64,000 bases of DNA from NCBI GenBank assembly GCA_000961575.1, contig LADP01000046.1, positions 62,001 to 126,000 of the forward strand, given 5' to 3'. The position numbers and the translations under genes are program-made. Positions 9,191-64,000 of the stretch are shown here, piece by piece (the stretch's first letter is position 1; every line of letters begins with the position of its first letter). The DNA is from Peptococcaceae bacterium BRH_c8a (GTDB lineage: Bacteria > Bacillota > Desulfotomaculia > Desulfotomaculales > Desulfallaceae). The notes under the pieces were generated by a model. That model had not been told where the DNA came from, made no database searches, and saw only the letters and a program-made list of their open reading frames with translations.

Positions 9191-9239
9191 TTACGTGCAC
9201 CTCCAACCAACCTGGGAGAGAACAGAATTTTTTTAGTAA

Positions 9240-9445
9240 TCAGAATTCAGTAGTCAGTAGTCAGAATATCTCAAGAATAGGGTTCTATGGCAATTGGCAA
9301 TGGTTGCGGAAAAACTTCGCAATTATTGGCTACTACAAACTATCGCAATTTCCGTTATGAATTAAGAAAAGGGGACACACCTCTGCTTATGGGTCGGGCT
9401 TTGGGGGTCGAGGAATGTCCCCTAATGACTCCTGACTCCTGAGTA
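9240..9445. repeat. Heptad bracket enclosing a GGGGACACACC element
   Basis: 9240-9267 (CAGAATTCAGTAGTCAG) and 9426-9445 (GACTCCTGACTCCTGA) are an inverted pair. Between them, 9371-9422 is a GGGGACACACCTCTGCTTA...GTCGAGGAATGTCCCC element also found at 54446-54497 (opposite orientation) and 56400-56450. It fills the rapZ-yvcK gap. Confidence 0.7.
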
Positions 9446-9457
9446 CTTCCCCTAAAG

Positions 9458-10324
9458 CTACCCCGTTTTGCCGATATCCCGGTGACGCACCGTCACCCGG
9501 TGGTCCTTTTGGCGCAGGATTTCTCCCAGCCGGTTGGCCAGGGCTACCGAGCGGTGCATTCCGCCGGTGCACCCGATGGCAATCATCAGAGTGGTTTTCC
9601 CTTCATCTATATAACGGGGGATTAAAAATTCCACCAGATCGGTGAACTTCTCCATAAATTGCACCGTAACCGGTGAGTTAAAAATAAAATCCCGTACCGG
9701 CGAATCATTCCCCGACATGGGCCGCATTACCGGGTCGTAGTGCGGATTGGGCAGGAACCGCACATCTATGACCAGGTCACTGTCCAGGGGGATGCCGTAC
9801 TTAAACCCGAAGGATATCACTGTAATCAGCAACTGAGATACTTCAGCATCATATTCAAAAAGCTCGGTCAGCTTCTCCTTTAACTGCTGGTTACTCAGGT
9901 CGGAGGTGTCAATAATCTTACCTGACCGCCCCCTGATTTCTTCCAGCAGTTGGCGTTCCTCCTGAATGTTGCGCAGCACCTCGCCGTGCCTGCCCAGGGG
10001 ATGCCGGCGGCGAGATTCCTTGTAACGCCGCACCAGCGTTTCGTCCGAGGCTTCCAGGAACAACACCTCGTAGCTCACGTCACCCCGTTCCAATTCGTCC
10101 AGCACTTCGGTCAGAGTTTGAAAAAACTCTCCACCCCGAATATCTACAACCAATGCTATATTATTAATATGCCGGCCTGATTGTGCACACAGCTCGGCAA
10201 ACTTGGGGATCAGGGCGGGTGGCAGGTTGTCCACACAAAAATATCCCATGTCCTCCAGGCAACGCAGTGCCTGAGTTTTACCGGCCCCGGAAAGACCGGT
10301 GACGATTACCATTCTCGCAGGCAT
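9458..10324 (-). CDS. rapZ: RNase adapter / nucleotide-binding protein RapZ (YvcJ)
   Basis: P-loop protein with Walker A GLSGAGKT at residues 10-17. The family motif [12 protein letters not shown] follows, and the C-terminal domain has [13 protein letters not shown] and [17 protein letters not shown]. In E. coli RapZ guides RNase E to a small RNA of amino-sugar metabolism. In Firmicutes the homologue YvcJ hydrolyses GTP/ATP and affects competence. The length of 288 aa is standard. GGGGTGG precedes the ATG. It is the first of the conserved rapZ-yvcK-whiA set. Confidence 0.95.
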
Positions 10325-47468: not shown

Positions 47469-48101
47469 TTAGATTAACACCTGCTTGCACATGTCGGTGG
47501 CTACTACGGCATCGGAGGCGAAACCGTCGGCCCCGATTTCATCTGCGTATTCCGGAGTAACGGGGGCGCCGCCGATGAGGATCTTGACGCCGCTCCGCAG
47601 GTTCTCTTGATCCAGGGCGGTGATTACTGCTTTCATGACCGGCATGGTGGTGGTTAAAAGGGCCGACATGCCTACCACTTGCGGGTTGTGTTCTTTAACC
47701 GCCTGCACAAATTTATCCACCGGTACATCCACGCCCAAATCTACTACGTTGAAACCACTGCTTTCTAACATCATAATGACCAGGTTTTTGCCGATGTCGT
47801 GCAGATCGCCTTTAACGGTGCCGATAACCACTTTGCCGGAGGTGGGGATATTCTCGGCGGCCATCAGGGGCTTGACCAGTTCCACTCCGCCTTTCATGGC
47901 CTGGGCGGATCTCATCATTTCCGGCACAAACAAGTCGCCTTCTTTAAATCGTACTCCTACCTCGTTAATGCCCGGGATTAGGCCTTCGTTAATGATGGAC
48001 AGGGGATCATTGCCGGCATCGATTAGTTTTTGGGTTACTTCCTTAACTTTTTTAATGTCTCCCTTGATGACCACGTCGGACAGTTCCTGATAGTTGCTCA
48101 T
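47469..48101 (-). CDS. Corrinoid (B12)-binding methyl carrier protein, MtgC/MttC-like
   Basis: 210 aa. An N-terminal four-helix cap (about 1-85, NEGLIPGINEVGVRFKEGDLFVPEMMRSAQAM) precedes a Rossmann-like B12 domain with D-x-H-x-x-G at 99-104 (GDLHDIGKNLV; His101 the predicted lower axial cobalt ligand), then GADGFASDAVVA. Such proteins accept a methyl group from a substrate-specific methyltransferase (MttB family) and hand it to a tetrahydrofolate methyltransferase. Partner candidates are the two MttB genes 0.5-3.5 kb upstream and the methyltransferase at 59338-60138. AGGAGGG precedes the ATG. Confidence 0.93.
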   Translation of the reverse strand: MSNYQELSDVVIKGDIKKVKEVTQKLIDAGNDPLSIINEGLIPGINEVGVRFKEGDLFVPEMMRSAQAMKGGVELVKPLMAAENIPTSGKVVIGTVKGDLHDIGKNLVIMMLESSGFNVVDLGVDVPVDKFVQAVKEHNPQVVGMSALLTTTMPVMKAVITALDQENLRSGVKILIGGAPVTPEYADEIGADGFASDAVVATDMCKQVLI

Positions 48102-48639: not shown

Positions 48640-50094
48640 CTACTCCCCGCACAGCCTTTCTTCAGCAGCGCGCAGGATGCTGTCGATGGCCTGTTCGGCT
48701 TCCGGCGTCACCTGCACGGGTTGGTGCGTGGCCATCACTTGGGCGATTTTTTCGCGGATGCGGGTGCCGGTTGTTTTGGCGCCTTCCGCAGCCCAGGCGT
48801 CGTAGCCGTTGAAGTCTGAAACGTCGGGTTTCCAGCTTTGTTTGAAGTGGTTGTATGTGTGGTCGTCACCCAGGAAATTGCCGCCGGGGCCGACCCGTTT
48901 AATGGCTTCCACCGCCAGGTACTCGGGGCTGGTGTTCACACCCCCCAGCAGGTTCCTGGCCCGGGAAATGACTTCGTTGTTCAGCACCAGCAGTTCCAGG
49001 GAACCGGTGCGTCCGGATTCAATGTAGAATACGTCGTGCATCAGATTGCAGCCCTGCAGTGCGCCCATCAGGGTAAACATGGTGGCTTCCATGACGGTCT
49101 GCTCGTCGAAGGTCTTGGAGCTGCTGCACCCGGCGTAACCCCAGGTGGGCACCGCGTAATAGCGGGCCAGGTCGCAAAGGGCTCCCTGCAGCAGCAGCGC
49201 GTGGGGTACCGCGTAAACCGCCTGCATGGTGCGCATATCCAGGGGCGAATCCCCATAACCGTACAGGAATGGCGCGCCCGGGTTCTTAAGCTGGTGTACC
49301 ACCAGGCCGCCCAGCGCCTCGGCGTTGGCCTGCACAACGGTCCCGGCCTCGGTGACCGGCGTGGACGCCCCGGCCAGCGCTCCGCAAGCAAAGTTGACCG
49401 GTATTTTCAATTCCGCCGCGGCCAGGAGTTTATCCACTGACTCAAAGGGAAACTGCAGCGGCGAGGTGGGTTCCAAGTACATGGCAAACAGCGGCTGGTG
49501 CTTCAGCTTGGCCGGCCCGCCCACCACCGCCGCCGCCATAGCGAATATGTCCTCCACTGTCGACCGGTCCTCGGCAATAATGACCTGAGGCTTGATGCTA
49601 TTTTTAATCATTAACGCATACTGGTTGCGGTAAATCATCCGTTTGTCCACGTCATTTAATAGGCCCATAGACATCACAAAATCCATTTGGGGCAAGTAGT
49701 CCACCAGGCGCACCGCTGCCGCCACGTCGGCGGTGTTCCAGGGCCGTCTCTCTCCGGTGGCCGGGTCAATAAAATTTAAGGTGTCGGAGCCCGGGCCGAA
49801 ATAGGCGTTGGAGCCCTCCAGGAACATAGCGGGATCGCCCAGCCGGTTGTAAACGGTCACCCGGGCCGGTGCCGTCCGGATGGCCCATTCGATCAGGGCA
49901 TCGGGCAGGTAGGTGCGGCCCGAGGCATCGGTGTAGGCGCCGGCCTTGTTCAGCAGTTGGGCGGCCTCGTCGTGGTGCACAATCAGCCCGGTTTCGTTTA
50001 GAATCCGGCAGCTGGCGCTGTGGATCTCTTTAATCTGTTCGGTGGTCAGGGTTCTAAATGATACCCCGCCGCCGTGTTTACTTGCGTACTGCAT
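48640..50094 (-). CDS. MttB-family corrinoid methyltransferase 1 (non-pyrrolysine)
   Basis: 484 aa TIM-barrel methyltransferase of the trimethylamine methyltransferase (MttB) superfamily. It moves a methyl group from a quaternary/tertiary amine to a cognate corrinoid protein. Features: the N-terminal HSASCRILNETGLIVHHDEAAQLL region, GSDTLNFIDPATGERR, and GGNFLGDDHTYNHFKQSWKPD near the end. The frame is open throughout with no in-frame amber codon, so it is the non-Pyl class. In that class MtgB uses glycine betaine and others use proline betaine, carnitine or gamma-butyrobetaine; the substrate here cannot be told. AGGGGG precedes the ATG. It is 12 bp downstream of the second copy, and the two are clearly diverged rather than recent duplicates. 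Confidence 0.9.
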   Translation of the reverse strand: MQYASKHGGGVSFRTLTTEQIKEIHSASCRILNETGLIVHHDEAAQLLNKAGAYTDASGRTYLPDALIEWAIRTAPARVTVYNRLGDPAMFLEGSNAYFGPGSDTLNFIDPATGERRPWNTADVAAAVRLVDYLPQMDFVMSMGLLNDVDKRMIYRNQYALMIKNSIKPQVIIAEDRSTVEDIFAMAAAVVGGPAKLKHQPLFAMYLEPTSPLQFPFESVDKLLAAAELKIPVNFACGALAGASTPVTEAGTVVQANAEALGGLVVHQLKNPGAPFLYGYGDSPLDMRTMQAVYAVPHALLLQGALCDLARYYAVPTWGYAGCSSSKTFDEQTVMEATMFTLMGALQGCNLMHDVFYIESGRTGSLELLVLNNEVISRARNLLGGVNTSPEYLAVEAIKRVGPGGNFLGDDHTYNHFKQSWKPDVSDFNGYDAWAAEGAKTTGTRIREKIAQVMATHQPVQVTPEAEQAIDSILRAAEERLCGE

Positions 50095-50106: not shown

Positions 50107-51564
50107 CTAACCGCACTCGGTTTCCCGGCGCTTAATGATAGCCTGCATTTCTTCGGCGGCCCCGGCGGGCAGCGCCGCGGGTTCGTGTTTCTCCAGCACT
50201 TCTTTAACCTTATCCATAGCAATATCCATGGATTTCTTCATCCCCTTGGCTTCCCACTGCTCCCAGCGGTACCGGATAAAGTAGCGGGGGTTCCAGATTT
50301 CCTCCCGGAAATATTTAAAGGTGTGGTCGTGGCCCATAAAGTTGCCGGCCGGGCCCACGTCATCGATGCAGTCAACCGCCAGGTGGTCGGGGGTAGTCCT
50401 GGTGCCCCGGCCCATGTAGCGAACCATGTCGATAATGTCGTCGCAAATCACCAAAAAGGGCAGGTAACCGGTCTTGCCGCCTTCCAGGTAGCCCACGTCG
50501 TGCACCAGGTTACCGCCTTCCAGCTGGTTCATCAATATGGAAACCGAGGCTTCCACGCCGGCTTGAATATCGGGCACCGGTGAGTTTACGCAGCCCGCCT
50601 CAGTGAAGTTGGGCAGCCCGTACCACTGGGCCAGTTGGGTCATGATGGCGTAGTTCATGGAAGTTTCCGGCGACCCGTAAAGGGTGGCGGTGGTTTTCAT
50701 ATCCATCGGGGTGGCCCCGCCGCCGATAATAATGGGCGCACCTTTTTTGTACAGCTGGGCCATCACCACGCCCGCCAGGGACTCGGCGTTCATCTGGACG
50801 ATGCTGCCCGCCTTGGTCACCGGCGTGGTAGCGCCGGCCAGGATGCCCGGGGTATACACAACGGGCACGTTATAATCAAAGCACTTAAACATCTTGCCCA
50901 CCCCGTCCATAGTATGTACCAGCGGGGAAATAGGCTCGGTATACAATATGATGTAGGGGTTCTGCTTCAGGTTGTCCACCCCGCCGACGCAGGCCGCTGC
51001 CATCAAAATTAAGGCTTCAGTATTCTCGGCGTTATGGGCGGTGAAGATAATGGGCTTGCCGGTGTTTAAGGTCATTGCTTCAAACTGGTGCAGATCGCTG
51101 ACGGTGGGGTTGGTTTCCGAAGCAATGGCGTAGCTCATGATAAAGTCATAGTTGGGCAGCGCATCCATTACTTTGACGGCTTCAACCACGTCCTGCTTGG
51201 TGGTGCTTCTTCTGGTTTTGGTGGCCATGTCGATGGTAAAGGGCAGGTCGGAACCGGTACCGTAGTAGACCCGGTTTTTTTCCAGGGGCATCACTCTTTC
51301 GCCCAGCCGGTTGGCCACCGCCACCCGCTTGGGGGCCAGGCGGATGCATTCATCCACCAGCCAGCCGGGTATCCAAACCCGTTTATCCTGCACTTTGCAA
51401 CCCGCATCTTTAAGCAGGGCCAGGGCTCCCGGGTGCTGCACTTCGACGCCGGTGCGCTCCAGCACTTCCAGCGAGGCGTAGTGAATTTGTTCCAACTGGG
51501 TGTCGGTGACCCACTTTAAACGGGGCGTAACTTGTTCATCATAATTAGATAGGAATTTTTCCAT
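50107..51564 (-). CDS. MttB-family corrinoid methyltransferase 2 (non-pyrrolysine)
   Basis: 485 aa, same superfamily. YASLEVLERTGVEVQHPGALALLKDAGC at the N-terminus, GTGSDLPFTIDMATKTRRSTTKQDVVEAVKVMDALPNYDFIMSYA, and GPAGNFMGHDHTFKYFREEIWNPRYF toward the end. No in-frame amber codon. First gene of the mttB-mttB pair; ribosome site GGAGGG. With a corrinoid protein, an Opu-type transporter and a methyl-THF methyltransferase in the same region, a betaine substrate is likely (inference). Glycine betaine is the best-known precedent (Desulfitobacterium MtgB). Confidence 0.9.
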   Translation of the reverse strand: MEKFLSNYDEQVTPRLKWVTDTQLEQIHYASLEVLERTGVEVQHPGALALLKDAGCKVQDKRVWIPGWLVDECIRLAPKRVAVANRLGERVMPLEKNRVYYGTGSDLPFTIDMATKTRRSTTKQDVVEAVKVMDALPNYDFIMSYAIASETNPTVSDLHQFEAMTLNTGKPIIFTAHNAENTEALILMAAACVGGVDNLKQNPYIILYTEPISPLVHTMDGVGKMFKCFDYNVPVVYTPGILAGATTPVTKAGSIVQMNAESLAGVVMAQLYKKGAPIIIGGGATPMDMKTTATLYGSPETSMNYAIMTQLAQWYGLPNFTEAGCVNSPVPDIQAGVEASVSILMNQLEGGNLVHDVGYLEGGKTGYLPFLVICDDIIDMVRYMGRGTRTTPDHLAVDCIDDVGPAGNFMGHDHTFKYFREEIWNPRYFIRYRWEQWEAKGMKKSMDIAMDKVKEVLEKHEPAALPAGAAEEMQAIIKRRETECG

Positions 51565-51754: not shown

Positions 51755-51912
51755 AAAGTAATTTGCAAGAGCCATGCCAAACATTTAATACAAAAAAACC
51801 CCGGGGTTTGAGATTAAAACCGCAGGGCGCAAAATTTTTATGCTCCAATTTGCACCATCCGGTGGTCACCGGTGATGCAAATATTATTTGCATGCTTCAT
51901 CGCCATGCGCCG

Positions 51913-52905
51913 CTATATACTTCGCATAGTTATCGCTTCCGTGGGGCAGGTATTGGCACAAAGACCGCAACCCCAGCATAAAGCGCTGTCAAAAACCACA
52001 TCCCAAACCTTTTTCCCTTCTTTCTCTACCTCGGTTGGGCTTAACTTAAACGCCCCGAAGGGGCAGCGTTTGGCGCATAAGCCGCACATCCGGCATTTAT
52101 CCCGGTCATATCCGGCCACGTAGCGCGACCGGGGCCATTTGCCTTTGGTGCTCAGTTGTTGGGCCGCCCGAAATGGATAGCAGCAGCAGGTACAGCAGTT
52201 GCACACCACGGCAGGCCCTTTTTCCCGCCAGTCATACGGCCCGCCGGTATGCATCAGACCTTCTTTGTCCAGGCGGCGCACCAGTGCTTTAGCTTCTGCC
52301 CGGGACAACTCCCGGCCTCCGGTGCGGTCGGTGATGGTCTGTTCAAAGAAGATGCAAATTTCCCTGGAGTGCCCGCAGTTGTCCGCCATGATTTTGCAAT
52401 TGCAGGGCAGCACCCTAATTTGCCCGGCGGCGTCAATCATTTCTTCCACTTCGGGCAGCAACAGCACCCAGTCATTATGACAATTGTCGTAATCCGGTTC
52501 GGTGTCTAGTACTTGCTTAAAGTAATTATGTCTTTGCATGTATTCTTCATAACACCACTGATCCAGCCGGCGGCGCACCTCTTTGGGCAGTACGTGGTAA
52601 TTACCGAACAGGCAAAAGTTGTCCAGCCGGCGGTAAAATTCGCCCGAGGTGTATAGGGTGGTGCCGTGCTCCACTGTTTTATTAATTACGTGGCGTTGGT
52701 AAGACTGCTCCAGCCAAACATTAACATTTTCCAGCGGCTCTTGCAACAGGGCGGCAATTTCCAGCCCGGTCAGGCTTTGATCCTTTAAACCAATCGCCAG
52801 TTTCATTTCCTGCTCGGTGACAAAATGGTGCAGATGTGGTTTGACAAAGCCGGGGGCTTGAAAAACCGCCATAAATTCCTTGATAAATGCTTCGCTTAGC
52901 TGCAT
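51913..52905 (-). CDS. Cysteine-rich 4Fe-4S dicluster protein with helical N-terminal domain
   Basis: 330 aa. The N-terminal ~130 residues look helical/winged-helix (VTEQEMKLAIGLKDQSLTGLEIAALLQEPLENV). The middle has CNCKIMADNCGHSREIC and the unusual CNCCTCCCYP. The C-terminus has two ferredoxin motifs, CRMCGLCAKRCPFGA and CWGCGLCANTCPTEA (each C-x2-C-x2-C-x3-C-P), for two 4Fe-4S clusters. It is upstream of the MttB pair on the same strand. Corrinoid methyltransferase systems need an iron-sulfur reductive activator (RamA/RACE) to rescue Co(II); this is not a classical RamA but is a candidate for electron delivery. GGAGG precedes the ATG. Confidence 0.8.
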   Translation of the reverse strand: MQLSEAFIKEFMAVFQAPGFVKPHLHHFVTEQEMKLAIGLKDQSLTGLEIAALLQEPLENVNVWLEQSYQRHVINKTVEHGTTLYTSGEFYRRLDNFCLFGNYHVLPKEVRRRLDQWCYEEYMQRHNYFKQVLDTEPDYDNCHNDWVLLLPEVEEMIDAAGQIRVLPCNCKIMADNCGHSREICIFFEQTITDRTGGRELSRAEAKALVRRLDKEGLMHTGGPYDWREKGPAVVCNCCTCCCYPFRAAQQLSTKGKWPRSRYVAGYDRDKCRMCGLCAKRCPFGAFKLSPTEVEKEGKKVWDVVFDSALCWGCGLCANTCPTEAITMRSI

Positions 52906-53369: not shown

Positions 53370-54308
53370 TTACTTGATTAAGCCTTTTTCGGTCAGGAAT
53401 TGTTTGGAAACTTCTTCCACGCTCTTCTTGTCAACGTCTACTGCCTTGTTTAGGCTGACAGTGGTATCGTTATCTAGAAGTTGGCTAAGGGCTTTCATTT
53501 GTTCAGGGATATCCGGATATGCTTCCAGGATTTCTTCCCGGAACAGCGGGGCGGCGTTGTAAACCGGGAAAGCACTCTTGTCGTCTTCCAGAGCTACCAG
53601 GTTATAAGCTTCGATCCTGGCATCAGTGGTAAAGGCGAGACCCACTTCGGCCTGGTTGGCTTTAAGCGCTTCATAACCCATGTTCAAAGCAGCAGCCACC
53701 ATGTCTTCTTTGGGATATTGGAAATCGTAAATGTTCTCAAAGTGCTGCAGGCCGTCGGGACGCTCGATCCATTCCTGGGCGGTGATGAACTTAAGGTGCG
53801 CGCCGTCCTGCACTGCCTTGGCCAGGTCGGAGGTTGTGGTCAGGTTGTATTCGTCAGCAACGTCCTGCCTGACCATGATGGCGTAGGTGTCGTTCATCGG
53901 GGTATAGTCCAGCCAAACAATACCGTTGGCCGCGTCAAATTCCTTAACCAGATTAAAGCTCTCTTCAGAATCAAAGCTGGGCTCGTGTTCCATAATGTTA
54001 ATCAGCACGGTGCCGGTATATTCCCAGTAAGCGCTAACCTGCCCGGATTCCAGGGCGGGCCTGACCACGGCCAGTTCGCCGAGGCCCATTTTATTTTCCA
54101 CGGGGTAACCGAGGTACTCAAGGTACTGATAAGTCATGGTGCCTAAAAGCAATGCTTCGGTAAAAGTCTTGGAACTAACTACGATGGTAGGCTTGTCGCC
54201 TTCTGAGGCCGCATCGCCTTTGGTTTCACCGCCACCGCCGCAACCCGCGGCAATTAGCGAAAGCGCCATCACTAAAACTAGCATGCATAAAAATACCTTT
54301 TTCTTCAC
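53370..54308 (-). CDS. Quaternary-amine ABC transporter, substrate-binding lipoprotein (OpuCC/OsmX-like)
   Basis: 312 aa. Lipobox LIAAGC in the signal peptide, then an OpuAC-type binding domain: VVSSKTFTEALLLGTMTYQYLEYLGYPVENKMGLGE and SGQVSAYWEYTGT, then TPMNDTYAIMVRQ. This family binds glycine betaine, choline, carnitine, proline betaine and, in EgtU, ergothioneine, so the ligand is open. GTG start at 54308 after GGGAGG. It is the last gene of permease-ATPase-permease-binding protein. The rest of the gap to the permease holds the inverted GGGGACATTCC element 54446-54497. Confidence 0.9.
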   Translation of the reverse strand: MKKKVFLCMLVLVMALSLIAAGCGGGGETKGDAASEGDKPTIVVSSKTFTEALLLGTMTYQYLEYLGYPVENKMGLGELAVVRPALESGQVSAYWEYTGTVLINIMEHEPSFDSEESFNLVKEFDAANGIVWLDYTPMNDTYAIMVRQDVADEYNLTTTSDLAKAVQDGAHLKFITAQEWIERPDGLQHFENIYDFQYPKEDMVAAALNMGYEALKANQAEVGLAFTTDARIEAYNLVALEDDKSAFPVYNAAPLFREEILEAYPDIPEQMKALSQLLDNDTTVSLNKAVDVDKKSVEEVSKQFLTEKGLIK

Positions 54309-54533: not shown

Positions 54534-55175
54534 TCAGCTGCCTAGGCCGGGAGGAGTGATCCTAAACTCCACGTACGCCAGGGTTCTATCTAATACAATG
54601 GCCAAAAGCGCGCCCAACCCGGCGCCCACCAGCAGAAACTCAGTCCAAAACATGGCCAGTCCGGTCACAATCAAATCCCCCAACCCGCCGCCGCCGATAT
54701 AAGCGGCCAGGGTGCCCACGCTTACTACGTACACCGTGGAGGTTCTGATGCCGGCCAGGATAATAGGCATAGCCAGGGGCAGTTCAACCTCGTAAAGTAT
54801 TTGTCTATGGGACATGCCCATGCCCAGAGCGGCTTCCTTAACATCGGGGCCGACAGCGTAAATACCGGCAATAGTATTTCTGGCGATGGGCAGCAGGCCC
54901 TGCACCGACAGGGCTACAATGGTTGGTTTTAAACCCAGGCCTAAAAACGGCATCACCAGGGCTATCACAGCCAAACCGGGTACCGTCTGCAGCAGGTTCA
55001 TCACGTTCATCACAATCATACTCAGTTTTTTGTACCTGGGCCTGGTTAATATAACACCCAGCGGCAGGGCGATGGCCACGGCTATGCCTATGGTGATAAC
55101 CACCATCAACAGGTGTACCGACAGGGCTTCAGGCGCTCTATGCACCAGGGCATCCTGCATACGAGCCCAGTTCAT
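54534..55175 (-). CDS. Quaternary-amine ABC transporter permease (OpuCB/CD-like)
   Basis: 213 aa, about five or six TM helices. BPD_transp_1 permease with the ATPase-contact loop EAALGMGMSHRQILYEVELPLAMPIILAGIRTSTV. It starts immediately after the ATPase stop (ATG within TAAATG), so the two are coupled. Works with the second permease 56514-57182. Confidence 0.92.
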   Translation of the reverse strand: MNWARMQDALVHRAPEALSVHLLMVVITIGIAVAIALPLGVILTRPRYKKLSMIVMNVMNLLQTVPGLAVIALVMPFLGLGLKPTIVALSVQGLLPIARNTIAGIYAVGPDVKEAALGMGMSHRQILYEVELPLAMPIILAGIRTSTVYVVSVGTLAAYIGGGGLGDLIVTGLAMFWTEFLLVGAGLGALLAIVLDRTLAYVEFRITPPGLGS

Positions 55176-56297
55176 TTACTCGCCCTCTTTCTTGCTGGCA
55201 TGCTTCCTAATATCCCGGAGGGAGATCGCGCCGGTAATCCGGTTACCATCCATAACCCCCAGGTGCTCGGTGTCCAGTTCCAACATCAACGACAGGGCAT
55301 CCCGCAGCAGTACCAACTCCTGCACGAAAGCTTTTTTACGGCCGGCAACAATCTGCTGCATTGTTTCGGAAGCGGCACTGTCGCCATGTTTGGCAATATC
55401 TTCCCAGGTTATAAAACCGGCGGCCCGGCCACCGTTATCCAACACAAAACAGGTGTCGGCACCTAAATCACGCATCTTGCCGGCCACGTTGGGCAGTTCG
55501 CTCTCGCCGGCGGTGCATATCGTACGCCTGGCCACGTCTTTCACATGGAACAGGCTCAGTATTTTAACCACCCGGTCAAGGCCGATAAAATCTTTGACAA
55601 AATCATTAGTCGGCTTGGACAGGATCTCCTGAGGAGTACCGTACTGGACAAGCTGTCCGGCACTAAAAATAGCAATGCGGTCACCCATTTTAATCGCTTC
55701 ATTAATATCATGGGTCACAAAGCAAATGGTTTTTTTCATTTCCTTTTGCAGACGTAGGAATTCGTCCTGCAGGTGGTTCCTGGCGATGGGGTCAACAGCG
55801 CCGAAAGGTTCGTCCATCAGCATTATCGGGGGATCCACAGCCATAGCCCGGGCCACGCCTACCCGCTGCATTTGGCCGCCGCTCAGTTGGGAGGGAAACT
55901 TATGGCGACTTTCTTCCGGGTCCAGGCCAATTAGGGTCAGCAGCTCGTCAACCCGTTTTTTAATCCGATCCTTGGGCCAGCCGTGCAGCCGGGGTACGAT
56001 GGCGATGTTCTCGGCCACCGACCGGTGGGGCAAAAGGCCGATCTGCTGAATTACATAACCGATGTCCATTCTGAGTTTGTCCGGGTCACTTTGCCTGATG
56101 TCCTTGCCGTCAATCAGAATCGTGCCCGCAGTGGTATCAATCATGCGGTTAATCATGCGCAGGGTGGTGCTTTTCCCACACCCGGAGGGCCCAACCAGTA
56201 CGCAGGTTTCCCCTTTTTCAACCGTCATGGAAAGATTATCTACCGCCGGTGCGGATTGTCCTGGATATACTTTTGATACTTCTCTTAACTCGATCAA
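55176..56297 (-). CDS. Quaternary-amine ABC transporter ATPase with CBS domains (OpuCA-like)
   Basis: 373 aa. Walker A GPSGCGKSTT, signature LSGGQMQRVGVA, Walker B PPIMLMDEPFGAVD, H-loop VTHDINEA. Two CBS motifs at the C-terminus (about 250-370), which in OpuA-type ATPases sense ionic strength or c-di-AMP. TTG start at 56297 after AGGAGGAG. Confidence 0.93.
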   Translation of the reverse strand: MIELREVSKVYPGQSAPAVDNLSMTVEKGETCVLVGPSGCGKSTTLRMINRMIDTTAGTILIDGKDIRQSDPDKLRMDIGYVIQQIGLLPHRSVAENIAIVPRLHGWPKDRIKKRVDELLTLIGLDPEESRHKFPSQLSGGQMQRVGVARAMAVDPPIMLMDEPFGAVDPIARNHLQDEFLRLQKEMKKTICFVTHDINEAIKMGDRIAIFSAGQLVQYGTPQEILSKPTNDFVKDFIGLDRVVKILSLFHVKDVARRTICTAGESELPNVAGKMRDLGADTCFVLDNGGRAAGFITWEDIAKHGDSAASETMQQIVAGRKKAFVQELVLLRDALSLMLELDTEHLGVMDGNRITGAISLRDIRKHASKKEGE

Positions 56298-56513: not shown

Positions 56514-57182
56514 TCAACTTCGTCCTGTCCTGAGGCCGCGGGGGACGATGCGTTTTTCAATATAGCCCAGTAGGCTGTCCAGGCCGATGGCGATTATTGC
56601 AATAAAGAGGGCGCCTACTATAATCATCTCGACGTTGAACCTGGTCAAACCTTCCGCGATAAGCCGGCCCAGGTTTCTTTCCCCGATATAGGTAGCAATA
56701 GCCGCGATACCCGTAGTCATTACCACGGTGATTCTAAAACCGGCAAAAATCACCGGGGTGGCCAGCGGCAGCTGAATTTCCCACAAAATCCGCCAGGAAC
56801 TCATACCCATACCTTTGGCCGCCTCAATGACGCTTTTATCGACCCCTTTAACACCCTGGTACACGTTGCGCACCAGCGGCATCATGGCATACAGCACCAG
56901 GGCCACCAGGGCGGACCGCCGGCCCAACCCCAAAGCGGGAATAGTGACCATCACCGCAAATAGGGACAGACTGGGGATGCAAAAAATTGTATTGGCTATG
57001 TTAAGTACCCGGCTGGCCCACTTTTCATTTTTGGTAATCAGCACACCCACCGGTACCCACAGCACAAGCGAAATAATAATGGCTGTCAGTACCAGCGCAA
57101 AGTGGTTTTGGGCATATTCCATAATTAACTCGGTATTGCGCTGGATATAAATGATATATTCCAAAAATCCACCTGCTTTCAA
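56514..57182 (-). CDS. Quaternary-amine ABC transporter permease 2 (OpuCB/CD-like)
   Basis: 222 aa BPD_transp_1 permease with about six TM helices and the coupling loop EAAKGMGMSSWRILWEIQLPLATPVIFAGFRITVV. First gene of the transporter set, about 215 bp upstream of the ATPase, the gap being repeat sequence. The start is uncertain: TTG at 57182 has no ribosome site, and a TTG at 57164 follows AGGTGG by four bases. Confidence 0.9.
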   Translation of the reverse strand: MKAGGFLEYIIYIQRNTELIMEYAQNHFALVLTAIIISLVLWVPVGVLITKNEKWASRVLNIANTIFCIPSLSLFAVMVTIPALGLGRRSALVALVLYAMMPLVRNVYQGVKGVDKSVIEAAKGMGMSSWRILWEIQLPLATPVIFAGFRITVVMTTGIAAIATYIGERNLGRLIAEGLTRFNVEMIIVGALFIAIIAIGLDSLLGYIEKRIVPRGLRTGRS

Positions 57183-57495: not shown

Positions 57496-59040
57496 TTACG
57501 CCAGCATCCCTACTTCCATTTCCACCTTCCGGTTTACCGAACCGGCCAGCAGCAGGTCGTGCACCCGGTGCAAATCTTTGTACAGCACGCGGTCCTCGTC
57601 CCAGTGGGGCACTACTTCCCGCACCAGGCGGTGGGCCACCCGGGTTCCCCGGCCCACGGAGTGAGACGCAAAATCCAGGGCCTGGGCCGCTGCCAGCATC
57701 TCCCCCGCAATCACCCAGGAAACATTTTCAATGACCGTCCCGGCTTTGCGGGCTGCTATGGAGCCCATGCTGACGTGATCCTCCTGGTTGCCCGAGGTGG
57801 GGATGGAATCCACACTGGCCGGGTGAGCCAGCACCTTGTTTTCCGAAGCCAGGGCTGCTGCACAGTATTGCAGAATCATCATCCCGGAATTCAGGCCGCC
57901 GCACTGGGTCAGAAAAGCAGGCAGCCCGCTTAATGACGGGTTGACCAGCCTTTCAATGCGCCGCTCGGCAATACTGCCCAGTTCTGAAACCGCAATCGCC
58001 AGAAAGTCTAGAGCCAGGGCCAGGGGCTGGCCGTGAAAATTACCGCCGCTTATGACGTCCCCGGTGTCAGGGAAAATCAGCGGATTGTCGGTAGCCGAGT
58101 TAATTTCAGTTTCCAGGATGCCCCGCACATAATTAAAAGCGTCCAGCGAAGCCCCGTGCACCTGGGGTATGCACCGGAGGGTGTAGGCATCCTGCACCCT
58201 TTTATGCTCAGTTCTGGTGCACAAGTCGCTGCCTTCCAGCAGTTGGCGCATCGCCAGGGCGCTGCGCTTTTGCCCGGTGTGGGGGCGGGCTTCATGAATG
58301 CGCGCATCATAGGCACTGGGCAGTCCCTCCAGCGCTTCAAATGTCATGGCCGCGGCAATGGACGAGGCCTTGCAGAGCTCCAGCGCGTCGTATACCCCCA
58401 GGCAGCCCAGAGCGCTCATGTATTGGGTGCCGTTAATCAGCGCCAGGCCTTCCTTGGCCGACAGGGTTACGGGGTGCAGTTTGGCCTGTTTGAAGGCTTC
58501 GGCCGAGGAAATCACCTGGCCGTTGTACTCCACGTCCCCAAGGCCGATCATAGCCAGGGCGATATGCGCCAGGGGCACCAAATCACCACTGGCACCCACC
58601 GAGCCCTGGCAGGGAACCACCGGGTGGATGCCGCAATTCAGCATATCCAGCAGCAGCTGCACCAATTCCAGCCGCACGCCCGAGTAGCCCTTGGTCAGTG
58701 AATTGGCCCGCAGCAGCATCATCGCCCTGACGGCGTCCCTGCGCAGGGGTTCCCCCACCCCGCAGGCATGGCTCATAATAATGTTTTTCTGCAGCGTATT
58801 CCGGTCTTCCGGCGAAACCGAAACATCGCTGAATTTGCCGAACCCGGTATTAACACCATAAACCACCTGGTCGCCGGCCAGTATTTTCTCCACCACCGCC
58901 CGGGACTTAACCAACCTGGCTTTCCCGGGTACATGCAGTCTGACCTGCACCGACTCCCGGGCTACGGCAATCACCTGCTCCAAAGTGAGGTTTTCGCCGT
59001 CAATGGCAATCATCTCGATGGCAGATTTGGTCTCAATCAT
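57496..59040 (-). CDS. hutH: Histidine ammonia-lyase
   Basis: Deaminates histidine to urocanate. The MIO-forming triad Ala-Ser-Gly is at residues 150-152 (QGSVGASGDLVPLAH). Histidine-type active-site features: Tyr61 and the SHACGVGEPL loop with His91, plus NQEDHVSMGSIAAR (the Glu present in HAL but not in PAL/TAL). 514 aa. ATG 59040 lies eight bases after GGGAGGG; a GTG three codons earlier abuts that site. Related lyases act on trimethylated substrates (ergothionase), so a histidine-derivative substrate cannot be ruled out. The order urocanase-AOR-methyltransferase-hutH is unusual for a hut operon. Confidence 0.92.
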   Translation of the reverse strand: MIETKSAIEMIAIDGENLTLEQVIAVARESVQVRLHVPGKARLVKSRAVVEKILAGDQVVYGVNTGFGKFSDVSVSPEDRNTLQKNIIMSHACGVGEPLRRDAVRAMMLLRANSLTKGYSGVRLELVQLLLDMLNCGIHPVVPCQGSVGASGDLVPLAHIALAMIGLGDVEYNGQVISSAEAFKQAKLHPVTLSAKEGLALINGTQYMSALGCLGVYDALELCKASSIAAAMTFEALEGLPSAYDARIHEARPHTGQKRSALAMRQLLEGSDLCTRTEHKRVQDAYTLRCIPQVHGASLDAFNYVRGILETEINSATDNPLIFPDTGDVISGGNFHGQPLALALDFLAIAVSELGSIAERRIERLVNPSLSGLPAFLTQCGGLNSGMMILQYCAAALASENKVLAHPASVDSIPTSGNQEDHVSMGSIAARKAGTVIENVSWVIAGEMLAAAQALDFASHSVGRGTRVAHRLVREVVPHWDEDRVLYKDLHRVHDLLLAGSVNRKVEMEVGMLA

Positions 59041-59202
59041 AAGTACCACCCTCCCGCATCATTAAGCAAAAATAATTTAAAAAAGGACAAAATAAATAGG
59101 GAATAGAGCACGATTATCTCGCCTCTACTCCCTAACAACTAGTTATCTCTGAGTAGAAATGACAACGCATTTAGAAAATGCTTTTTTATTTTTTGACTTT
59201 TA

Positions 59203-59337: not shown

Positions 59338-60138
59338 TCAGTCGTTATATATGCCCCTCCGGTAGGCGCCCAGGTACTCTCCGCAGTAGGGATCCTGGCC
59401 CAATAGCGCCTGTGAAGCGTACAGGAATCCCATCATGGCCCGGTCCAACGGATCCAGAATATAAGAATCCATACCCGCGGTCATGGTTTGAATCATGAAC
59501 ACCTGGTTCAGTATTTTCCGGCAGGGCAGGCCGAAACTGATATTGCTCAGACCGCAGATGGCATGCACCCCGGGGTATTCCGACCTGATGAACCGCAGCG
59601 TGTCCAGCACCTCTATACCCGCGCCGTCACTGACGCTGACCGGTTTGACCAGCGGATCCAGGTAAATGTCATCCTCGGGAACGCCGGCATCGGTCAGGTC
59701 TTGCACCAGCTTTTTAACAATCACAATGCGCTGATCCGCGGTATCGGGCATGCCGCTGTCGTCCATGCACAATGCCACCACTTTGGCCTTGTATTTCAGC
59801 ACCAGCGGCAGAATATTTTCAAACCGTTCCTTTTCCGCCGAGATAGAGTTGACCATTGGCTGTTTACCGGCGGCCAGTTCTAGGCCGGCCTGCAGTGCCT
59901 CGGGGCTGGGGCTGTCAATGCACAGGGGCGCGTCTACGGCTTCTTGCACCGTATTCACCAGCCACTCCATAATTTCAGCCTCATTATGTACCATTGTGCC
60001 GCAGTTTACGTCCACAAATGTGGCTCCCGCCTGCACCTGCCGGCTGGCTATGTCCTTAATATAACCGGCGTCTTTGTTAAGCACCGCTTCTTTAATCAGC
60101 TTGCGGCTGGTATTGATTAATTCTCCCACGATAAGCAA
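59338..60138 (-). CDS. Methyltetrahydrofolate:corrinoid methyltransferase (MtgA/MtvA/AcsE-like)
   Basis: 266 aa pterin-binding TIM barrel. VGELINTSRKLIKEAV, GATFVDVNCGT, CIDSPSPEALQAGLEL and HAICGLSNISFGLPCR are the conserved strands of AcsE-type and Mtg/Mtv/MtqA-type enzymes. It transfers a methyl group between a corrinoid protein and tetrahydrofolate. In demethylation pathways (e.g. glycine betaine in Desulfitobacterium) the direction is to THF. No CODH/ACS gene is near, favouring a substrate-demethylation role with the MttB/corrinoid genes 8-12 kb away. TTG start at 60138 after AAGGAGG. Confidence 0.9.
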   Translation of the reverse strand: MLIVGELINTSRKLIKEAVLNKDAGYIKDIASRQVQAGATFVDVNCGTMVHNEAEIMEWLVNTVQEAVDAPLCIDSPSPEALQAGLELAAGKQPMVNSISAEKERFENILPLVLKYKAKVVALCMDDSGMPDTADQRIVIVKKLVQDLTDAGVPEDDIYLDPLVKPVSVSDGAGIEVLDTLRFIRSEYPGVHAICGLSNISFGLPCRKILNQVFMIQTMTAGMDSYILDPLDRAMMGFLYASQALLGQDPYCGEYLGAYRRGIYND

Positions 60139-60300: not shown

Positions 60301-62151
60301 TTAAATGCCCAGTTGTTTAATTTTAGCTGCGCTTACGGTGCCGTCTTGTTCCCAGCCCATCAGGGCATAAAATTGCTGCAGCATGGGGGCCAGGTTGATT
60401 ACGGAGCCTTGGCAGGGGCCTTCAGATATGGGCTCGGTGGTAAACTTTTCAGGCAGGGTGTCATCACGGCCGGTGGCGCCGAAGCGGAAATTAAACAGCC
60501 GCTCGACGTTGACTATTCTTTCGCCGGCCAACAGCAGGTCCGCCCCGGTGACCGGCTGGCCGGTAAAGGCCGTCACTATTTTAGCCGCTTCCTCCAGGTT
60601 AAAGTCCAGCAACATGCCAAACTGGGGTATTTTGCAGATACCTAGCGAATCCACCACGGCGTTGGCGCACATGCACTGCCGCACCATCGCGGCCTTGCCC
60701 TCCTCGGACAGGCGGTCGGCTGCCTTTGCCGTGCCGAAAGCATCCAGCGCCTGCTGCGGAGTGTAGGCGTACTCGGGCTTGGCGTATACGTAACCGAAAT
60801 CCGCCCCCCGGTTGGATACCGCATACCCCAGGCCGCTGGCTTTGAAGGCCCGGGGATCCATAAAGGTCATGCTGAGACCCTTGACCAGATGGGCGTATTG
60901 CTCGGCCCCCCGGCCAATAATCCGGGCTGCTTCCCGCATACCCCGGGCCAGGGTGTCGCCCAGCGGCGTGCTGCGGTAAGTAATTTGCTGCAGTAATTGT
61001 TCCATAGCTTCGGTGTTACCCCAGGTCAGTGCCAAACCCCCGGTATCTTCCGGGGTTAGTATGCCCCGTTCATACAGGTCGATGGCAAATGCCACCACGT
61101 TGCCGGCCCCGATGCTGTCCACACCGTAATCATCACACAGGTTGCACAGGTACACGCTGGCCAGGCCGTCGGCGTTGCCGCACTTGGGGCCCCAAGTGGC
61201 CAGGGGTTCGTATTCCCCCCGCTCGCCTTCAAAACCTGTGTGCCGGCCCCGGTCTATTTTAATGTCGGCTTTGCAGCGAATGGGGCAGTTATAACAGCCC
61301 CGGTGTTTGACAATTAAATCTTTGAAGGCGGATCCGCTGGCGGTTTCGGCACCCGCAAAGGTGACCTGAGAGTGGTTTTTAGCCGCGCATCCACCCATCT
61401 GGTGGGTCCAGAGCACGCTGTCGGTGGAGCCCAGGGTAGTCCATTGCTCCCAGCTGGGCAGCGCTTTTAATTTGGCCAGGTAGTCTTTCACCGCCGGTAC
61501 TGCGGCCGCCGGTGTTGCCGCAGCCACAGAGGATGTTTTGCGCACCACTAGCCCTTTCAGGTGCTTGGCGCCCATCACTGCTCCCAGTCCGGTGCGCCCG
61601 CAGGCGTGCCCCGGGCCGAACATAATAGAGGCTAAAGCCACCATCTTTTCGCCGGCGGGTCCGATCACCGCCGCCCGGGCCTTCTCGTCCCCGGCCAGTT
61701 CCAGCAGCTTGGCCGCCGCCTCTTTTCTTTCCAAACCCCAGGCGGTGGAAGCGTCCTCGATGGTAACGTGCTCGCTCCGAATGTTAATAAACACCGGTTT
61801 ATTGGCTTTCCCCACTATAACAAGGGCCAGGATGCCACAGCCTTTAAGCTCCGAGCCGAACATGCCCCCGGAATTGGAAGTGCCGATCAAGCCCGTCAGA
61901 GGCGAGCGGGCGCTTACATGCAGTCGGCCGGTGGTAATCATTTTGGTGCCGCTTAACAGACCGGCGGCAAAGATCAAAATATTTTCCGGATCCAGCGGCG
62001 CCACGTCTTTTTTTAAATGCTTCAATAAGATGTAATCGCCCAGGCCCCGGCCGCCCAGGTAATCCCGGGTGATGTGCTCGGGGCAGGGCTTACGGCTGAT
62101 TTCCCCGGTCGACAGGTCAACCAGAACCAAGTCATTGCGAACGTTAGCCAC
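60301..62151 (-). CDS. Aldehyde:ferredoxin oxidoreductase family protein (tungsten/molybdopterin)
   Basis: About 616 aa. N-domain LVDLSTGEISRKPCPEHITRDYLGGRGLGDYIL, pterin-binding ARSPLTGLIGTSNSGGMFGSELK and FGPGHACGRTGLGAVMGAKHLK, and a 4Fe-4S motif C-x2-C-x3-C in GCYNCPIRCKAD with a later Cys in LGICKIPQFG. AOR enzymes oxidise aldehydes to acids with ferredoxin as acceptor; the substrate is unknown. GTG at 62151 has AAGGAAGTGA just upstream. The frame extends to 62208, but that stretch (MCQRNRPPDTLL) is read from the hairpin 62176-62210. Its place between urocanase and the methyltransferase is unusual. Confidence 0.88.
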   Translation of the reverse strand: MANVRNDLVLVDLSTGEISRKPCPEHITRDYLGGRGLGDYILLKHLKKDVAPLDPENILIFAAGLLSGTKMITTGRLHVSARSPLTGLIGTSNSGGMFGSELKGCGILALVIVGKANKPVFINIRSEHVTIEDASTAWGLERKEAAAKLLELAGDEKARAAVIGPAGEKMVALASIMFGPGHACGRTGLGAVMGAKHLKGLVVRKTSSVAAATPAAAVPAVKDYLAKLKALPSWEQWTTLGSTDSVLWTHQMGGCAAKNHSQVTFAGAETASGSAFKDLIVKHRGCYNCPIRCKADIKIDRGRHTGFEGERGEYEPLATWGPKCGNADGLASVYLCNLCDDYGVDSIGAGNVVAFAIDLYERGILTPEDTGGLALTWGNTEAMEQLLQQITYRSTPLGDTLARGMREAARIIGRGAEQYAHLVKGLSMTFMDPRAFKASGLGYAVSNRGADFGYVYAKPEYAYTPQQALDAFGTAKAADRLSEEGKAAMVRQCMCANAVVDSLGICKIPQFGMLLDFNLEEAAKIVTAFTGQPVTGADLLLAGERIVNVERLFNFRFGATGRDDTLPEKFTTEPISEGPCQGSVINLAPMLQQFYALMGWEQDGTVSAAKIKQLGI

Positions 62152-62175
62152 CGGCTCACTTCCTTTCTGATCAAG

Positions 62176-62210
62176 AAGTGTGTCAGGGGGACGGTTCCTT
62201 TGACACACTT
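62176..62210. repeat. GTGTCAGGGGGACGG hairpin repeat
   Basis: AAGTGTGTCAGGGGGACGG...CCTTTGACACACTT. It overlaps the false upstream start of the aor gene. Confidence 0.85.
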
Positions 62211-62550: not shown

Positions 62551-64000
62551 TTACTTCAGGGCTGTGGTGACTAGCCGATCGACCAGTTCGTCGTCGGCCA
62601 GGTAGGGCAGGGTGATGTGTCCGCTGCCTGCGAAATTGCGGTTGAACTCCATGCTGGTGGTGATGGAATTGTCGTTTCTGGCCCAGGAGCGCCTGGCTAC
62701 GCCGCCCATCACGTCCCACAGCATCGCCGATTTGATGATGTTATCCACCCGGGCGGTGCCGTCCAGCACCAGGCCGAACCCGCCGTTGATCGCTTTGCCG
62801 ATGCCCACGCCGCCGCCGTTGTGCAGCGAAACCAGGCTCATGCCCCGGGCGGCGTTGCCGGCGAAGCACTGGGTGGCCATGTCAGCCATCACATTGCTGC
62901 CGTCTTTGATGTTGGCGGTTTCCCGGAAGGGCGAGTCGGTGCCGCCGGTATCGTGGTGATCCCGACCCAGCATCACCGGGCCGATTTCACCGTTCCTGAC
63001 CATCTCGTTGAACTTCAGGGCAATCTTAACCCGCCCCCCGGCGTCCTGGTACAGAATCCGGGCCTGGGAACCCACCACCAGCTTGTTCTGCTGGGCGTCC
63101 CTAATCCAGATGTAGTTGTCCCGATCCTGGTATCGCCCGGCCGGGTCAATGCAGTCCATAGCAGCCCGGTCGGTTTGAGCCAGGTCTTCGGGCTTGCCGC
63201 TCAGGCAAACCCAGCGGAAAGGCCCGTAACCGTAATCAAATAACTCCGGTCCCATAATGTCTTCCACGTAGGAGGGCCAGATAAAGCCGTCCTTATCGTC
63301 TACGCCGTTGGCGGCGATTTCTTGCACCCCGGCATCGTAGACCGCCTTTAAGAAAGCGTTACCATAATCGAAGAAATAAGTGCCCCGCTCCACCATGATT
63401 TTAATCAGCTCGTACTGCCGGCGCAGGCTTTTGTCCACCAGGCGGCGGAACTGTGACTGGTCTTCGGCCAGCAGCCTGGTGCGTTCATCGAAGGTGACCC
63501 CCTGGGGGCAGTAACCACCGGCATAGGCGACGTGGCAAGAAGTCTGGTCGGAAAGCAGTTCCACTTTGATATTGTTCTGCACCACGTATTCCAGCAGATC
63601 CACGATATTGCCGTGATAAGCAATAGACAGCGGCTCTTTTTTAGCCAGGTACTCGGCGGCCGTGCGGAAAATTTCGTCCAGGTCGTCCGACATCATGCCC
63701 ACCCAGCCCTGGTCGTGCCTGGTCTTGATGCGGGAGTAATCCACTTCGGCGATGATCCCCACCCCGCGGGCAATTTCCACTGCCTTGGGTTGGGCACCGC
63801 TCATGCCGCCCAGACCGGAAGAGATAAACATGTGCCCGCTAAGGTCGCCGTCCTCGGGGATGCCCAACTTGGCCCGGCCGGCAATCAAAATGGTGTTATA
63901 GGTGCCGTGCACAATACCCTGGGGGCCGATGTACATCCAGCCACCGGCGGTCATCTGGCCGTAGTTGGACACACCCATCTCCTGGGCGATCTCCCAGTCT
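62551..64000 (-). CDS. hutU: Urocanate hydratase, C-terminal ~480 residues (start beyond window)
   Basis: Converts urocanate to 4-imidazolone-5-propionate using NAD as a tightly bound cofactor. The frame is open to the right edge; the first ~70-100 residues of the usual ~550 are missing from the window. GGWMYIGPQGIVHGTYNTI, GLGGMSGAQPKA (NAD-binding), CHVAYAGGYCPQG, GRDHHDTGGTDSPFRETANIKDGSNVMADMATQCFAGNAARGM and SLHNGGGVGIGKAINGG are highly conserved urocanase motifs. It is the first visible gene of the histidine-degradation part; hutI/hutG or formiminotransferase genes were not found in the window and may lie further right. Confidence 0.95.
   Translation of the reverse strand, partial: DWEIAQEMGVSNYGQMTAGGWMYIGPQGIVHGTYNTILIAGRAKLGIPEDGDLSGHMFISSGLGGMSGAQPKAVEIARGVGIIAEVDYSRIKTRHDQGWVGMMSDDLDEIFRTAAEYLAKKEPLSIAYHGNIVDLLEYVVQNNIKVELLSDQTSCHVAYAGGYCPQGVTFDERTRLLAEDQSQFRRLVDKSLRRQYELIKIMVERGTYFFDYGNAFLKAVYDAGVQEIAANGVDDKDGFIWPSYVEDIMGPELFDYGYGPFRWVCLSGKPEDLAQTDRAAMDCIDPAGRYQDRDNYIWIRDAQQNKLVVGSQARILYQDAGGRVKIALKFNEMVRNGEIGPVMLGRDHHDTGGTDSPFRETANIKDGSNVMADMATQCFAGNAARGMSLVSLHNGGGVGIGKAINGGFGLVLDGTARVDNIIKSAMLWDVMGGVARRSWARNDNSITTSMEFNRNFAGSGHITLPYLADDELVDRLVTTALK

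Follow-up and report, generated by a model that had tools for sequence, protein, structure and literature searches.

The putative isoprene reductase IsrA of Acetobacterium wieringae, according to the available part of its report, has 901 amino acids and the same kinds of domain as the ~900-residue proteins met below, and it carries Cys180/Cys182 and Cys254/Cys256 within a six-cysteine (Cys6) site (PMC10134865). In the same part of that report the site is proposed to be cluster V, the metal site nearest the substrate, possibly binding nickel, and the isr operon is seen to encode as well a '4Fe-4S ferredoxin' of 350 residues that aligns with the first ~270 residues of IsrA (PMC10134865). Iron-sulfur redox proteins of another kind, RACo, RamA and RamQ (RACE), are encoded near corrinoid methyltransferases in anaerobes; in E. 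limosum, as far as the accessible text of the work goes, MtqC is activated by RamQ with ATP and Ti(III)citrate (PMC8604678). Finally, the genes that adjoin the present one belong to the kind seen in MttB-MtgC-MtgA demethylation systems (MtgB, MtpB, MtcB, MtyB), an Opu-type transporter included, but here they are interleaved with hut genes and a gene for an enzyme of the aldehyde:ferredoxin oxidoreductase family (AOR).

The window, a stretch of 64,000 nucleotides from Peptococcaceae bacterium BRH_c8a, carries these genes near one end, and all those named between 47469 and 63978 lie on one strand (Table 1). The island runs on beyond the window (L013:979-9658), where, in rising coordinates, genes follow for a PAS/sigma-54 activator, FchA, FtcD, HutI, a UroD-family methyltransferase and a RACo-type protein. 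In reading direction the RACo gene comes first, then the UroD-family methyltransferase gene, then hutI, ftcD and fchA. The two MttB proteins match PF06253 with E values of 8e-95 (MttB1) and 8e-80 (MttB2), and MttB1 scores only 164-203 bits with solved proteins of its family. Two identities were tried and set aside on their scores: that HutH is an ergothionase (455 bits with the histidine ammonia-lyase 6v6h against 266 bits with ergothionase 6s7j), and that the transporter is of the EgtU type. For the transporter's binding protein, EgtUC gives 116 bits and OsmF the higher score of 148 bits; the transporter thus fails to point specifically to ergothioneine. Some 40-50 kb past the window end, two further MtgC-like proteins (L015:1529-2203 and 8851-9528, about 40% identical to that of the window) are encoded near another RACo-family gene and, by reading, a UroD-like gene.

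Table 1. Features of the hut-mttB island within the window, and loci of other family members linked to hypA/hypB
Feature	Position	Strand	Remarks
MtgC-like corrinoid protein	47469..48101	-	best NCBIfam matches MtgC, below cut-offs
MttB-family methyltransferase 2	48640..50094	-	PF06253, no internal stop
MttB-family methyltransferase 1	50107..51564	-	PF06253, no internal stop
Sigma-54-like -24/-12 site	51765..51779	-	1 mismatch; between Fe-S gene and mttB1
Fe-S protein P0001	51913..52905	-	winged-helix-like N-terminus (about 20-90), Cys6 domain, two predicted [4Fe-4S] ferredoxin sites
OpuAC/OsmF-type quaternary-amine binding protein	53370..54308	-	
ABC permease	54534..55175	-	Opu type by position and reading
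ABC ATPase with CBS domain (OpuAA type)	55176..56297	-	
ABC permease	56514..57182	-	Opu type by position and reading
Histidine ammonia-lyase HutH	57496..59049	-	best PDB matches are histidine ammonia-lyases, ergothionase weaker
Methyl-THF:corrinoid methyltransferase (MtgA-like)	59338..60138	-	PRK07535
AOR-family tungsten enzyme	60301..62208	-	
Urocanate hydratase HutU	62551..63978	-	runs on past window end
hypA/hypB-linked loci	L018-L022, L025, L039, L050, L052, L066, L089, L131, L168, L169		

The gene of interest encodes the iron-sulfur (Fe-S) protein P0001, 330 amino acids read from an ATG, and lies directly upstream of mttB1, with a gap of 348 bp, and then mttB2. The other strand of the same interval is interrupted by stops. 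The initial annotation had described a cysteine-rich protein adjoining a pair of mttB genes, with two ferredoxin clusters and unusual runs of cysteine that might hold more, and this description stands: the frame is intact, both mttB neighbours match PF06253, and Pfam and alignment alike find two CxxCxxCxxxC motifs, C271-C281 and C310-C320, which are two predicted [4Fe-4S] sites. Pfam places this ferredoxin region at the C-terminus, where the best stretches fall within residues 264-329; none of its families has a best stretch within residues 1-260 at E <= 0.1. NCBIfam matches are likewise C-terminal only, and none reaches its family cut-off among the 25 families listed out of 78. P0001 resembles 2[4Fe-4S] ferredoxins and polyferredoxins across its C-terminal 65 residues and differs from them in the remaining 260 or so, to which Pfam assigns nothing.

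It is in those further residues that the remaining cysteines are found, in the string CNCKIMADNC, which begins at C168, and in CNCCTCCC, which begins at C235. An alignment of 42 family members has 17 invariant columns, 12 of them cysteines, an invariance biased by the partial seeding of the set with CNCCTCCC. Relatives found without motif seeds mostly keep the cysteine core in varied form (CHCCGCCC, CNCCPCCC, CNCCSCCC, CNCCGCCC and others). Within the close subfamily, all 17 sequences, P0001 included, have the eight ferredoxin cysteines plus C168, C170, C184, C235, C237 and C242. By contrast C177, C238, C240 and C241 vary, the string at C235 being CNCCADCC in G305, G375, G419 and G460 and CNCGPRWC or CNCNPKWC in G196 and G158, and so it is not the full cysteine run that is required but the set CxC-C-CxC-C. 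These six middle cysteines, whose pattern is that of the published Cys6 site of IsrA, very probably hold an additional metal cluster, as had been surmised from the cysteine runs. P0001 is a member of a large family without a name, characterised by a winged-helix-like N-terminus, a CxC-C-CxC-C domain and two [4Fe-4S] sites.

The AlphaFold2 model of P0001 (mean pLDDT 91.9) is consistent with this division. In the predicted structure, the putative helix-turn-helix regulator 1sfx is matched by residues 19-113 (Z 8.9, rmsd 6.2 over 93 aligned residues) and TrmBL2 by residues 6-110 (Z 8.3, rmsd 4.6 over 92), while the C-terminus resembles 2[4Fe-4S] ferredoxin folds with Z about 8-9. The cysteine-rich middle domain, modelled alone, has a mean pLDDT of 85.8. 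Foldseek gave no match to it in the PDB at E <= 0.001 (best E 2.1) and VIA-align gave a single row, Z 2.4, and for this modelled domain the fold searches establish neither a new nor a known fold.

The relation to IsrA emerged from a search of the phylum, in which P0001 also matched frames of ~900 codons. A profile of the P0001 family, made from alignment A1 and run against three FAD proteins as a three-sequence search, matches residues 35-319 of one of 901 residues (L168; E 1e-53), residues 31-312 of one of 895 (L169; E 1e-51) and residues 64-346 of one of 937 (L131; E 7e-45). All three have Fer4, Fer4_20 and Pyr_redox_2 domains and keep the CxC-C-CxC-C set, with a spacing of 74 from CxC to CxC in each, and genes of the hypA and/or hypB type are their neighbours. 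The three stand in for IsrA by its published length, domains, spacing and neighbourhood, and the cysteines taken to complete the six of IsrA beyond its two CxC motifs are presumed ones. Given the agreement of profile match, cysteine set and domains with published IsrA, P0001 is best filed, from its sequence, as a stand-alone member of the family of IsrA N-terminal modules, one without the flavin module. Like IsrA and the 350-residue ferredoxin of the isr operon, so far as the available text describes them, it has two CxC motifs and a Cys6 site in its N-terminal region, and like that ferredoxin it consists of the N-terminal region plus a ferredoxin domain (PMC10134865). It differs from the isr ferredoxin, for which the same text gives one predicted [4Fe-4S] site, in having two (PMC10134865), from IsrA in having no FAD/NAD(P)H module (PF07992 and PF14691 are absent), and from the IsrA-type proteins in a CxC spacing of 67 rather than 74.

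A further difference from IsrA is the neighbourhood, for P0001 sits in a hut-mttB island with no HypA/HypB beside the gene. No HypA/HypB match of useful length was found in the window or in L013-L015 (there is one of 67 residues, E 9e-4, at L013:15708-15908), and there was none in the island loci L117, L119 and L153-L164. Across the broad family, 14 of 121 loci scanned have nickel-chaperone genes of the hypA and/or hypB type next to or close to the Fe-S gene, among them the loci of the six Desulfobacterales relatives (30-35% identity), ordered FeS-hypB-hypA. Since the available part of the isr report gives no such association for the isr ferredoxin (PMC10134865), the linkage in the broad family extends what is described there. 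One 20-kb locus (L131, in G096) has two stand-alone Fe-S family genes, the 937-residue IsrA-like protein and several HypA/HypB-type genes together.

How closely is this family tied to MttB? At E <= 1e-15 the broad family is found in 26 of 113 genomes of the class and in 47 of 398 of the phylum, the per-genome phylum counts being lower bounds because only the best 3-5 candidates per genome were scored. MTTB-family genes are present in four of the 26 (G000, G012 and G015, with G031 counted on a short match) and in 19 of the 47; MttB is enriched, yet not general, among carriers of the broad family. The picture changes with close orthologues, taken as those at least 57% identical to P0001 (G000, G012, G015, G222, G305, G375, G398, G419, G460 and G181). 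These ten form a single clade (SH-aLRT 99) in a quick-method tree of 53 of 119 candidates, the query among them, all having the required CxCC string. That tree is without rows longer than 460 residues, two thirds of the weaker matches, and the relatives in G196 and G158 (L163, L164; differing strings) and in G313 and G417 (L165, L166), all four of which are covered instead in the cysteine comparison of the close subfamily. A general co-occurrence of the family with MttB genes, which the initial annotation had offered as a check, therefore fails for the broad family, which often lacks them (22 of 26 carriers in the class, 28 of 47 in the phylum), and holds for the close subfamily, where all ten carriers have them. 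In the phylum sample the figures are 8 of 8 close carriers against 57 of 398 genomes overall (hypergeometric 1.1e-7) or, with each genus counted once, 6 of 6 against 47 of 267 (2.3e-5), statistics that are not fully independent, as six of the eight belong to one family (f46). Conversely, 49 of the 57 MTTB genomes have no close orthologue. The link of MttB to the close subfamily of P0001 is real, and in eight of its ten carriers hut genes share the contig.

The distance from Fe-S gene to mttB, measured between matched regions in 11 carriers, ranges from 53 bp to 8.6 kb; the count omits G012, where the contig ends, G417, with MttB on another contig, and G313, which has an Fe-S relative and no MttB. 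Three genomes have many MTTB matches (40 in G158, 34 in G196, 19 in G222) with one close Fe-S relative each, located at the hut-linked MttB pair; G158 and G196 each have an additional Fe-S match at 29%. The MttB expansion in the latter two is unusually large, and some of the genes have one internal TAG, presumably a case of pyrrolysine-type reading. A second Fe-S paralogue (41-42%) occurs in G305, G460 and G375 (L160, L161, L162), in each case beside what reads as an oligopeptide-type ABC transporter; a ~700-residue oxidoreductase lies near it at L160 (a molybdopterin enzyme by Pfam) and L161 (by reading). At L160 the second copy (42%), the molybdopterin oxidoreductase and HutH are found together.

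Island loci besides the window are L117/L118, L119, L154, L156-L159, L163, L164, L170, L172 and L173. The conserved set comprises hutH, hutU, hutI, ftcD and fchA, the mttB pair, mtgC and the sigma-54 activator, with an Opu-type transporter usual and AOR often present. Much of it recurs in changed order in G015, G012, G460, G398, G181, G222 and G419, as far as contigs or fetched stretches extend. G158 and G196, which are more distant carriers, have the genes in one contiguous series, read as mttB2-hutH-mttB1-FeS-hutI-ftcD-fchA-hutU. In G305 the hut set adjoins the second Fe-S copy on a different contig, and only a HutH-like fragment lies near the first copy; the 11.4 kb covered in G375 showed no hut gene. 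Histidine can be degraded by way of glutamate to mesaconate, and in G419 the genes after mtgC (L154:11688-16173) are glutamate-fermentation genes joined to the island, for a B12-binding protein, MutL, methylaspartate mutase E and methylaspartate ammonia-lyase; with glutamate mutase and the ammonia-lyase present, that whole route would be encoded in place. G069 keeps together MttB1 (77%), MttB2 (72%), MtgC (70%), AOR (62%), Opu, HutU, FchA, FtcD and the sigma-54 gene, with no HutH seen in the 19.9-kb stretch. No Fe-S gene was found in that stretch (best match E 0.44), nor in the genome at E <= 1e-15, which implies that P0001 is dispensable or replaceable.

The sigma-54-like site between the Fe-S gene and mttB1 suggests that the Fe-S gene stands outside the mttB transcript. 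A like site lies in the same slot in all three genomes searched, between Fe-S gene and mttB1 in G015 and between Fe-S gene and contig end in G012. In none of the four sources searched are such sites above chance in number (10 found against 7.35 expected in the window, 2 against 2.17 in L117, 2 against 1.86 in L119), and the argument lies in their shared position in 3 of 3 genomes; the Fe-S gene is probably not part of the mttB transcript, on the strength of consensus matches that occur at chance-level numbers.

Interleaved as they are with mttB genes, the hut genes suggest an N-methylated histidine as the substrate of the island. The most likely reading, to which we give a probability of about 0.5, is then that P0001 is a free-standing redox module of the IsrA type which acts, with a putative partner, at a substrate-specific step as the putative N-methylated histidine is broken down. 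The island would import the compound, MttB1 and MttB2 with MtgC and MtgA would take off its methyl groups, and the Hut enzymes would open the ring. Low-potential electrons would reach or leave a presumed Cys6 cluster through the ferredoxin tail, and P0001 would either carry out the reduction itself or pass electrons on to a Mo/W partner, perhaps the AOR of the island. Family membership, cysteine pattern, gene linkage and the presence of a standard activator are directly established, and P0001 probably assists as a redox protein and does not take the place of the known corrinoid activator.

That last point bears on the proposal from which the work began, that P0001 itself activates the corrinoid protein by reduction, in place of the usual activator, or supplies the electrons for a RACo-type one. 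The proposal drew on the seeming absence of a RamA/RACE-type activator, and within the window there is indeed no PF14574 (RACo/RamA family) gene. The genome, however, has four, all outside the window and two of them on the same contig, and a conventional activator encoded elsewhere was the first half of what the initial annotation had named as refuting its proposal. One belongs to the island itself (L013:7676-9658, 7.7-9.7 kb past the window end and about 19 kb from the P0001 gene); its product has the complete RACo architecture (domains Fer2, RACo linker, RACo middle, ASKHA), and the PDB entry that it matches best is 3zyy, which we take to be RACo. PF14574 is found in 96 of the 113 class genomes and in 12 of the 13 other Fe-S carriers; the exception, G398 (genome 91% complete), has the Fe-S protein and MttB genes with no PF14574 match and so speaks for an activator, as do the nearness of the Fe-S gene to mttB and the low-potential-type 2[4Fe-4S] tail. 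P0001 differs from the RACE proteins in having no ASKHA domain (no PF14574 match at E <= 0.1). The mttB pair and mtgC of G069 do without it, dozens of MTTB matches in G158 and G196 and 19 in G222 face one or two Fe-S copies, G313 has the relative with no MttB to serve, the sigma-54-like site parts the gene from mttB, and the RamQ precedent shows a conventional protein doing the work. With the role so weakened by RACE genes, copy numbers and G069, it is quite unlikely to be that of P0001. A dedicated electron partnership with the tungsten enzyme of the island is also unlikely, if a little less so. An AOR of the same subfamily (66% or more) shares the contig in six of the ten close carriers, the present genome included, directly follows the Fe-S gene in G222, and a distant relative of P0001 (33%, L024) lies about 390 bp from an AOR. 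But in the other four, either no AOR exceeds 37% identity or none comes up at E <= 1e-60, and with one of at least 61% missing from four of ten, AOR is not an obligate partner. AOR and the Fe-S gene each occur alone: G069 has the enzyme and not the Fe-S protein, and only 3 of 80 broad-family loci (L018-L097, the 80 kept of 211 relatives in a motif-seeded scan) have an AOR detectable with that of the window.

Two other roles seem less probable still. P0001 might regulate transcription of the island as a sensor of redox state or metal, its winged helix binding DNA and its clusters doing the sensing, as the modelled likeness of its N-terminus to 1sfx and TrmBL2 would allow. The gene in the window does stand alone, between the sigma-54-like site and a terminator-like hairpin (53333-53313; such hairpins are no commoner than in shuffled sequence). 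Yet the winged-helix region has a net charge of -3 in P0001 and is net negative in 26 of the 42 aligned family members (over a shortened residue range in L029 and L083), in G158 and G196 the Fe-S gene is embedded among enzyme genes, the island already has a sigma-54 activator, and conservation centres on the cysteine and ferredoxin part, which also heads FAD enzymes; a regulator is improbable. It would be a similarly long shot for the island to be an anaerobic pathway for the complete use of a histidine betaine, either hercynine or ergothioneine, its 2-thio form, in which the Cys6 cluster of P0001, possibly containing nickel, is catalytic. In such a pathway the Cys6 cluster and ferredoxin tail, with AOR where present, would remove the ring sulfur of ergothioneine or, alternatively, would reduce an unsaturated imidazole intermediate such as urocanate; MttB1, MttB2 and MtgC would then strip the N-methyls and the hut genes take histidine to glutamate. 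In the literature searched, so far as its text was available, there is nothing on hercynine together with MttB, none of the 12 papers listed out of 73 has both mttB and hutH, and no report joins mttB with hut genes.

The Cys6 module has a precedent in IsrA; what is new is its occurrence as a stand-alone protein within a hut-mttB island. A widespread, uncharacterised module, known in the available text of the literature searched from isoprene reduction, gains a genomic home. The island merges histidine degradation with corrinoid demethylation, and a defined class of substrate, the N-methylated histidines, becomes testable in culture. P0001 itself may be usable as a small stand-alone model of the proposed active site of IsrA.
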